A stretch of 64,000 nucleotides of DNA from Meiothermus cerbereus DSM 11376. GTDB taxonomy: Bacteria > Deinococcota > Deinococci > Deinococcales > Thermaceae. The notes beneath the pieces were generated by a model. That model was not told the origin of the DNA. It searched no databases and saw only the letters and a program-made list of their open reading frames with translations. A program made the translations under genes and the position numbers. Shown piece by piece: positions 34,529 through 64,000 of this stretch (its first letter is position 1; every line of letters begins with the position of its first letter). The stretch lies in contig NZ_KK211061.1 in assembly GCF_000620065.1 (NCBI RefSeq), positions 44,585 to 108,584 of the forward strand, in the 5' to 3' direction.

Positions 34529-35068
34529 ATGAACTATCGCAAATATCTAATCCTTCTGCTGCTTGGCCTGTTCTGGGGTATGTCGCAAGCCCAGACGGCC
34601 CAGTACACCATTGAGGGGCGCGTAACCTATGCCGCCAGCTACACCCTGGGGCGCTGGGAGGGCACCAACACCAGTGTGCGGGGTAGCGTGCGCTGGAACC
34701 CCCAGACGGGCGAGGCTTCGGGCCAGGTGTGCGTGGAGCTGGGCCGCTTCGATTCGGGGAATGCCCTGCGCGATGCCGACGCCAGGGGGGTCTTCAACGT
34801 TGACAAGTATCCCCTGAGTTGCCTCGAGGTCGAACGTATCGACCAGGCAGGTGACGAAACAACGATTAGCGGGAACTTGGAAATTAGCGGAACACGCCGT
34901 CCGGTGCGTATTGCCGGCAAGCTGACCCGCGAAGGCAATACCTACCGTTTTGTGGGGGGGTTCAACACCAGCTTCTCGGAGTGGAAGCTGAGCCCCCCCA
35001 GTCTGCTGTTCCTACGGGTCAACAACCCGGTAGAGGTGCGCCTCGAGGCCCGCGCGGTTTTGCGCTAG
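34529..35068 (+). CDS. Secreted YceI-family protein
   Basis: A 179-residue exported protein. A signal peptide (ending near GMSQAQ) is followed by a YceI-type lipocalin fold: QYTIEGRVTYAASYTLG, GQVCVELGRFDSGNALRDADARGVFNVDKYP and the FNTSFSEWKLSPP end. It is a diverged paralog of the cytoplasmic YceI at 11220. Two Cys residues may form a disulfide outside the cell. The start has a GGGAGA ribosome site 26 bp after the SDR stop. Likely ligands are isoprenoids or lipids. Confidence 0.85.
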   Translation: MNYRKYLILLLLGLFWGMSQAQTAQYTIEGRVTYAASYTLGRWEGTNTSVRGSVRWNPQTGEASGQVCVELGRFDSGNALRDADARGVFNVDKYPLSCLEVERIDQAGDETTISGNLEISGTRRPVRIAGKLTREGNTYRFVGGFNTSFSEWKLSPPSLLFLRVNNPVEVRLEARAVLR

Positions 35069-35077
35069 ACAATAAGA

Positions 35078-35322
35078 AATGTCTTTGATTTGTTCTTTTT
35101 CTGCGGCCCCCGCCTGAAGCACGGGTAGTAATACCGGATTCAAAAAGATAATCTTCAAACAAAAAGCGCTAAGAGGCTATCTTTTTGAATCCTAGAGCAC
35201 TCCCTTCGGTCGGGTTAGTTCGTCACCGTTCGGTGACGAACTAACCGAATCTGGTATAACAACCTGAAAAGCGATGGTGCTCAAGCCTGTCCCTAGCGGA
35301 ACGATTCAGGCGAGGTTCATAT
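35078..35322 (+). repeat. Dispersed intergenic repeat, family 1, copy 2, split by an insertion
   Basis: The outer parts (35078-35131 and 35257-35322) align closely with copy 1 at 24671-24782, from AATGTCTTTGATTTG to GCGAGGTTCATAT. Between GGGTAG and CAACCTGAAAAG, where the other copies are continuous, a 125-bp element is inserted. This copy fills the gap between convergent genes ending at 35068 and 35332. Confidence 0.85.
35132..35256. mobile_element. 125-bp MITE-like element nested in a dispersed repeat
   Basis: Terminal inverted repeats TACCGGATTC (35132-35141) and GAATCTGGTA (35247-35256) match at 9 of 10 positions and are flanked by TAA on both sides (35129-35131, 35257-35259), an apparent target duplication. 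Inside are a perfect 15-bp inverted repeat, GGATTCAAAAAGATA (35136-35150) with its complement at 35178-35192, and a 16-bp perfect hairpin, GGTTAGTTCGTCACCG (35213-35228) with 35231-35246. It has no coding capacity. A 3-bp TNA duplication would fit a parent in the IS5 group, which is inference. Confidence 0.75.
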
Positions 35323-35331
35323 AAAACCACT

Positions 35332-36675
35332 CTAGTCAAAGATCTTGCCGGGATTGAGCAGGCTCTGGGGGTCAAAGAGCTGTTTGATCTGGCGCATCCA
35401 TCCCAAAGCCGGCCCGTGCTCTTGGGGCAGATATTTCTTTTTGCGTAGCCCCACCCCGTGTTCGCCGGTACAGGTGCCCCCCAGGGCCAGGGTGTGCTCG
35501 ACAAGTCGCTCGGAAAAAACTTCTGCCCTGGGGTCGCCTGGTTCACAGACCACCAGGGTGTGAAAGTTGCCGTCGCCCACGTGTCCCAAAATATTGCCGC
35601 TAAGGCCTAGTTCGCGCAGCAGGTGGCTGGAATATGCTACCAGGTCGGGCATTTTGGAGATGGGCACGGCAGTGTCGGTGGCGAGGTAGGCCTTTCCGGG
35701 GAAAAGGTTGACCAAAGCCCAGTAGGCCTGGTGCCGGGCCTCCCACTGGGCGGTGCGCTCCTCCTGGGTACGGGCGGTGTCTATGCGGATGGCCCCGGCC
35801 TCCTGCATCAGCTCGAGGGCTAGGCTCGATTCGGCCTCGAGGGCTTCCTGGGTGGAGGAGTGAAACTCCACAAATAAAGCGGGTTTTTCGGGGTAGCTCT
35901 GGCCCAGGTAGCGATTAATGGCCAGCATACCCACCTCGTCCACCAGCTCGAGCCGCGCCACCGGCAGCCCACTGGCCATAACCGCGTAGGCAGCCTGGGC
36001 GGTGGCGTTCAGGTTTTCGAAGAAAACCCGCAGGGTGTGGATGTGCTCGGGGATGGGGTGCAGCTTTAAGGTCAGGCAGGTGATGATGCCCAGGGTTCCC
36101 TCGGAGCCGATGAACAAGTCCTTGAGGTTATAGCCTGCGCTGCTTTTGCGTACCCCCCGGCCCAGCTCCAATACCTCGCCATTTGCCAGGACTACCTGTA
36201 GCGCCAGGACGTTCTGCCGCATCCCGCCGTATCGCACGGTGGTGGTGCCCGAGGCGTTGGTAGCGGCCATGCCCCCCAGGCTGGCATCCGCGCCGGGGTC
36301 TACCGGAAAGAAGAGGCCGGTGCCTTTGAGAGCCTCGTTCAGGGCCTTGCGGGTCAGGCCTGGCTCTACCACGGCCAGGAAGTCTTCGGGGCGAACCTCG
36401 AGCACCCGGTTCATGCGTGAAACATCCAGCGAGATGGCCGGTCCCTGGGGGATCACATGCCCCTCGAGGCTGGTACCGGCCCCAAAAGGAATTACCGCCA
36501 CGCGGTGGGCACGGGCCCAGCCCAAAGCGGCCTGAATATCCGAAAGGTTTTCTGCAAAGACCACAGCCAGGGGCGGGTTCTGGATGGGGTAGCTCTCGTC
36601 TCTGCCATGGGTATTGAGGTCGGTGGGGGAGGTGCTCACTTTTTGCGGTAGTAGGTTCTTCAGGCTTTCCAGCAT
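35332..36675 (-). CDS. FAD-linked oxidase, D-lactate/glycolate dehydrogenase-like (GlcD superfamily)
   Basis: A 447-residue flavoenzyme of the VAO/PCMH type. FAD-binding motifs include IPFGAGTSLEGH and DPGADASLGGMAATNASGTTTVRYGGM. The C-terminal FAD-oxidase domain contains GHVGDGNFH and ends with the family tail LLNPGKIFD. It probably oxidises D-lactate or another 2-hydroxy acid and passes electrons to the respiratory chain. The start at 36675 has TAGGCT 6 nt upstream (leaderless pattern). It is a paralog of the GlcD-type protein at 57760. Confidence 0.9.
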   Translation of the reverse strand: MLESLKNLLPQKVSTSPTDLNTHGRDESYPIQNPPLAVVFAENLSDIQAALGWARAHRVAVIPFGAGTSLEGHVIPQGPAISLDVSRMNRVLEVRPEDFLAVVEPGLTRKALNEALKGTGLFFPVDPGADASLGGMAATNASGTTTVRYGGMRQNVLALQVVLANGEVLELGRGVRKSSAGYNLKDLFIGSEGTLGIITCLTLKLHPIPEHIHTLRVFFENLNATAQAAYAVMASGLPVARLELVDEVGMLAINRYLGQSYPEKPALFVEFHSSTQEALEAESSLALELMQEAGAIRIDTARTQEERTAQWEARHQAYWALVNLFPGKAYLATDTAVPISKMPDLVAYSSHLLRELGLSGNILGHVGDGNFHTLVVCEPGDPRAEVFSERLVEHTLALGGTCTGEHGVGLRKKKYLPQEHGPALGWMRQIKQLFDPQSLLNPGKIFD

Positions 36676-63883: not shown

Positions 63884-64000
63884 ATATGAACCCCGCCTGA
63901 ATCGCTCCGTTAGGGAGAGGTTAGGGCACCATCTTTTTTCAGGCTGTTTCTACCCGCGCTTCAGGCGGGGGCCCCAGAAAAAGACCAAATCAAAGACATT
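63884..64000 (-). repeat. Dispersed intergenic repeat, family 1, copy 3
   Basis: Read on the minus strand this copy begins at the window edge with AATGTCTTTGATTTG, shows CCTGAAGCGCGGGTAG, CAGCCTGAAAA and ACGGAGCGATTCAGGC, and ends GGTTCATAT. It is the uninterrupted form used to reconstruct the insertion site in copy 2. It may continue past the window. Confidence 0.85.

Follow-up and report, generated by a model that had tools for sequence, protein, structure and literature searches.

A recently active family of Thermaceae MITEs with 3-bp TNA target duplications, probably moved by an IS630-type transposase

Between two convergent genes of Meiothermus cerbereus DSM 11376 (the + gene ends at 35068, the − gene at 35332), a family 1 dispersed repeat is interrupted by a 125-bp segment, which raises the question of whether this segment is a transposable element and, if so, what moves it. 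The window analyzed here is the whole stretch of 64,000 nucleotides, taken from a genome assembly of 3.03 Mb in 54 contigs. The features of the locus, in window coordinates, are as follows.

35071–35131, +: family 1 repeat, left part, ending in GGGTAG and the first TAA; joined flanks match element-free stretches
35129–35131, +: target site duplication, left copy TAA (from the sequence)
35132–35256, +: MITE, 125 bp, with 18 identical copies in the genome
35132–35141, +: left terminal inverted repeat TACCGGATTC, invariant in 22 of 22 distinct left ends
35136–35192, +: left stem, 15-bp arms (35136–35150 and 35178–35192) with a 27-nt loop; conserved, with two-sided change in one pair
35193–35212, +: central linker CTAGAGCACTCCC.., where the extra modules of the 156-bp, 195-bp and longer forms sit
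35213–35246, +: right hairpin, 16-bp arms (35213–35228 and 35231–35246) with a 2-nt loop; arms covary, loop found in both orientations
35247–35256, +: right terminal inverted repeat GAATCTGGTA (from the sequence and the end profile)
35257–35259, +: target site duplication, right copy TAA (from the sequence)
35260–35325, +: family 1 repeat, right part (CAACCTGAAAAGCGATGG...), from the joined-flank comparison
63884–64000, −: uninterrupted family 1 copy, reading GGGTAG-AAA-CAGCCTG at the equivalent point (from the sequence)

The first-pass annotation had described an element of 125 bp with 10-bp terminal inverted repeats, a TAA duplication, a 15-bp inverted repeat and a 16-bp hairpin, and this anatomy is confirmed. 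TACCGGATTC and GAATCTGGTA are inverted repeats that match at 9 of 10 positions, with TAA on either side, and the arms of both stems are 100% complementary. The motif TACC[GA]GATTC is conserved at the two ends. Folding is far more stable than that of shuffled sequences, both as RNA (−52 kcal/mol vs −25.9 for shuffles, z −6.7) and as DNA (z −6.3), and coding capacity is absent: direct reading of the 156-bp form shows stops in each of its three forward frames.

A BLAST search of the assembly with the 125-bp query returned 40 near-identical full-length matches, 18 of them at 100% identity, and the terminal pattern was matched 88 times on the forward and 87 times on the reverse strand, compared with 3 and 0 times for a reversed-pattern control. 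Because 18 identical 125-bp copies stand in one genome, and ~88 terminal repeat ends per strand are set against 0–3 in the control, a chance origin is ruled out. The ~88 elements with the same ends yielded 85 extracted copies from 90 stretches, falling into two main size classes (52 of 125 bp and 29 of 156 bp, with one each of 44, 73, 126 and 150 bp). A perfect 3-bp duplication flanks 76 of the 85, and every one reads TNA (TAA 30, TTA 25, TCA 11, TGA 10); among those with an imperfect duplication, contig ends truncate two. Around N the target consensus, S-N-W-S-TNA-S-W-N-S, is symmetric, a pattern to be expected if the transposase acts as a dimer and staggers its cuts by 3 bp. Short, non-coding length (125–156 bp here, up to 474 bp elsewhere), terminal inverted repeats, fixed-length duplications and dispersed near-identical copies with empty sites, by which bacterial MITEs are recognized, are all present.

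A spread without transposition, through recombination or through co-amplification with neighboring repeats, would fit one pair of copies, that of the window and L124, where repeat and element together are 92% identical over 251 bp in the same orientation (C2:15501) and which, judged by that identity, could share descent. Most copies, however, have no sequence in common outside the element and carry a TNA duplication of their own, and empty sites are known, which refutes this explanation for the family as a whole and leaves it next to no probability. Transposition, as proposed in the first-pass annotation, is instead supported by the ~88 copies, their TNA duplications and the empty sites; the mobility, recent expansion and nesting of the MITE are demonstrated.

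To identify empty sites, the two flanks of each of 97 insertions were joined and compared with the loci examined, and several of the insertions proved to have element-free counterparts. For the window copy, ~40 element-free stretches among these loci match the joined flanks, the closest (L178) at 95.7% over 117 bp, and the sequence and the joined flanks together establish that the element interrupts the repeat between GGGTAG and CAACCTG, as had been claimed; the 125 bp is not a regular part of family 1, of which ~30 copies are without it. Family 1 itself is an interspersed element of ~110 bp with arms CCCCGCCTGAA...TTCAGGCGGGG and at least 30 copies in this genome (loci L157–L186). The uninterrupted copy at the end of the window had been cited as nearly equal to the predicted empty site, and its reading of AAA stands, with the refinement that most empty copies have CAA: GGGTAG-CAA-CARCCTG accounts for 9 of 11 exact pattern matches and AAA for 2 of 11. 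Three family 1 copies (window, L011 and L124) were hit at the same three bases, and all read TAA; as the insertion in L011 has the opposite orientation to that in the window, at least two of the three are independent. The presence of TAA in filled copies, vs CAA or AAA in empty ones, is consistent with a strict TNA requirement that selects rare variants. An insertion-coupled base change was also considered, and nothing else favors it. Insertions L028, L029 and L102 lie in copies of other repeats, whose element-free versions have the TNA once. A second dispersed repeat (GTTGCGCCAGGGTAGATTGGCAAAACCCGCGG...) is another landing site of the MITE (L028, L102, L127, L108 and L083).

In relatives, the orthologous interval between the flanking genes measures ~1.1 kb or more and lacks both family 1 and the MITE at this position, and in genome G002 a diverged part of a MITE lies elsewhere within it. 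Both insertions are therefore specific to this lineage, with the repeat first, and the earlier claim that the element is younger than the repeat is upheld for the window copy. The flanking genes are only ~260 bp apart here (35069–35331, filled by family 1 and the MITE), vs ~1.1–2 kb in most relatives searched (L316–L338), and a segment thus seems to have been lost at this locus.

The family extends beyond this genome. It occurs in 20 of the 41 genomes searched, all of them Thermaceae, and is absent from the 16 genomes that represent other families of the order; the virus and phage collections searched held no copies, and the two plasmids that carry copies belong to Meiothermus and Allomeiothermus only. 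Other species have forms of 194–196 bp, and genome G023 has forms of 251–474 bp with up to six central tandem modules of 39 bp. The ends and the two hairpins of the family are constant, and the middle is modular. Its 474-bp member (L218, G023:C1:2065146-2065619) has six tandem 39-bp modules between the hairpins, an array growing within a transposon. No paper on MITEs in Meiothermus was found in the open-access literature searched. The MITE family of Thermaceae is thus real, recently active and ordinary in kind, and undescribed in the open-access literature searched.

The hairpins could suggest another reason for persistence, in which the MITE persists chiefly for a function as RNA or terminator (a processing site, or termination in both directions where genes converge), with its spread a secondary matter. 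They are very stable, the arms of the right hairpin covary, and the window copy does sit between convergent genes. Across 16 diverse copies, 99.4% of right-stem cells are paired, two-sided changes are seen in 8 of 15 pairs and one-sided-only variation in none, a covariation score that no shuffle reached. The variable pairs, however, switch almost only among Watson-Crick pairs, and C.A/A.C mismatches, with 13 cases in 23 distinct hairpins, are as common as G.T, with 7, so that no strand-specific RNA pairing is preserved. The loop also occurs inverted (67 copies have GTTC, and 10 have GAAC, the reverse complement); Rfam gave no match for the MITE, no terminator was called on its hairpins, and 18 identical copies at unrelated sites speak for copying, not site-specific selection. 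We consider a primarily RNA-based role improbable. Homogenization of arms together with inversion of the spacer is a known signature of template switching (PMC8604942), and DNA template switching is, by inference, the better reading of the right hairpin: the internal hairpins would be DNA palindromes in which template switching keeps the arms identical and sometimes flips the loop.

What moves the element is a separate question. The first-pass annotation had advised a search for further copies and for a full-length parent IS; further copies were abundant (~88 here, more in 19 other genomes), but a full-length parent with the same 10-bp ends was not found. The parent search covered the stretches around matches and the contig ends of this genome, in which no autonomous element ending in exactly TACC[GA]GATTC was seen, all perfect ends either pairing at 44–156 bp or belonging to truncated or slightly mutated MITEs. 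In the G023 stretches inspected, the ends likewise pair as MITEs or broken copies. Several longer pairs were rejected as parents. A 1166-bp pair (L059/L187) with matching ends and a TAA duplication proved to be MITE-like sequence into which an IS5-type element has inserted, in a 1289-bp pair (L234) a further IS is nested at the end of a MITE, and a 1304-bp pair (L272) is a 195-bp MITE with an element termed IS-D nested inside. At L232, a 22-bp MITE left end lies beside a decayed IS630, which has its own end, TACCCCTTTTTG, and is a neighbor rather than a parent.

A search for relatives of this decayed IS630 gene led to a group of TACC-ended elements of the IS630 family. These candidate autonomous elements encode IS630 transposases with NF033545, DDE_3 and helix-turn-helix domains. 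IS-A, of 1128 bp, is multicopy in this genome, where it is found at seven or more contig ends; its ends are TACCAAATC.../TACCAACCT... (TACCAAATCTATGTAGATAATA and TACCAACCTTAGATAGATAGTC), and its duplications are TCA/TCA and TTA/TTA. NCBIfam NF033545 assigns it to IS630 (second ORF, 122 bits, cut-off 100), and Pfam gives a match to DDE_3 (PF13358, 65 bits). In one copy (L259 711-1838, G000:C7) the two ORFs overlap at an A8 run, a sequence arrangement suggestive of frameshifting, probably programmed, that joins them. At L025 (G000:C53:1-216), a MITE lies directly beside the right end of IS-A, with a TAA target common to both. The group further includes IS-D (1106 bp, genomes G013 and G010), IS-E (1077 bp, TCA or TGA duplications, Calidithermus chliarophilus) and a TTA-flanked relative of IS-E with TACC ends in Thermus parvatiensis, and TACC ends with TNA accompany IS630 transposases in at least four genomes.

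The nest at L272 fixes the boundary between IS and target. It reads GATAACTTC-[TACC..GGTA]-TTCGGTCGGG, and intact copies of the 195-bp MITE read GATAACTTCGGTCGGG; since these are without TA at the IS-D site, the TA belongs to the IS end. The nest proves that IS-D duplicated 3 bp, here TTC, with TA inside the IS. The TA target and 2-bp duplication known from the best-studied IS630 elements, which duplicate TA only, are not seen, the duplication being 3 bp in the MITE and in the MITE-nested IS-D. The nest as a whole (L272 1209-2512), a MITE flanked by TAA with an entire IS630 inside, is a potential new composite mobile unit.

The ends of these elements were ranked on a profile of 22 distinct MITE left ends (positions 5–25) against 1987 unrelated TACC sites. 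The two ends of IS-A scored p = 0.0005 and 0.0025, and the left end of IS-B scored p = 0.008 on the right-end profile; as ~20 comparisons were made, only the best p survives correction (~0.01). The ends of IS-D and IS-E did not rank on the MITE end profiles. Beyond TACC, the likeness of IS-A to the MITE is modest, with AGATARTY common to both at positions 15–22. Judged by these ends, IS-A or a near relative with better-matching ends would be the likeliest candidate for the driver of the MITE.

An IS5 origin (IS1031 or ISL2 type) has to be weighed here, for members of this family also make TNA duplications, of the 3-bp kind found at the MITE, and are abundant in these genomes. The same genera have IS5-type elements that end in GAGGCTGT/GAGACTGT and are flanked by TGA or TTA duplications, and one of these lies within a MITE-like stretch. 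The IS5-type ends seen here, however, all start with GAG and none with TACC, the sequence in which the MITE ends and which is found with TNA on IS630 transposases instead, and among the loci fetched from seven genomes no IS4/IS5-type transposase (PF01609) had TACC[GA]GATTC ends. An IS5 assignment is disfavored, and we regard it as unlikely. The MITE is probably moved by an IS630-type transposase, although the identity of the transposase and the cut-and-paste chemistry are what we infer. An IS630-family transposase acting in trans would bind and cut the TACC..GGTA ends of the MITE, and the excised element would join a T-N-A target with a 3-bp stagger, repair of which would duplicate TNA; the window copy would have jumped into a family 1 repeat already in place. 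Overall, we hold with good confidence that the 125-bp segment is a non-autonomous cut-and-paste MITE, driven in trans by the IS630 family, duplicating TNA and keeping its hairpin arms identical through template switching.

Among known bacterial MITEs, a close parallel is the 107-bp RUP (repeat unit of pneumococcus), attributed to IS630-Spn1 (PMC2229807), which is likewise short, gene-less, high-copy and hairpin-forming, has ends that start with TA, and inserts into other mobile elements. RUP, however, is attributed to TA insertion, whereas the Thermaceae MITE has a 3-bp TNA duplication and TACC[GA]GATTC ends. ERIC/IRU and Correia/NEMIS, compared by description, resemble it as palindromic bacterial MITEs of 100–160 bp with several size classes and TA-type termini, but differ in ends and hosts. 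The candidate elements have IS630 transposases in common with ISY100 and IS630, but these insert at TA and duplicate TA (PMC2170065), while the duplications of the Thermaceae group are 3 bp long, TNA or TTC. A 3-bp TAA duplication is known from fungal Fot/pogo elements, also members of the IS630-Tc1-mariner group (PMC7386202); these are eukaryotic and use TAA only, in contrast to the TNA with all four N in Thermaceae. In the open-access literature searched, no paper on a 3-bp IS630 duplication in bacteria was found. On balance, we lean toward the view that a distinct bacterial IS630 branch has given up the near-universal 2-bp TA stagger for one of 3 bp at T-N-A, in parallel with fungal Fot, and is the driver, across Thermaceae, of a MITE family that has recently been active. 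Some 'TA' duplications published for such IS630 elements may have been misread, since the IS itself begins with TA.

The copies break draft assemblies, several contigs ending in or near one, and masking them would aid Meiothermus genomics. Since the relationships among the dozens of copies are known, their palindromic arms and flipped loops constitute a natural record of template-switch mutation. As a recently expanded and easily scored MITE/IS pair in a thermophile, the system makes it possible to test on natural material how the target stagger is set in the IS630-Tc1-mariner group, where that of IS630 has been treated as fixed at TA.
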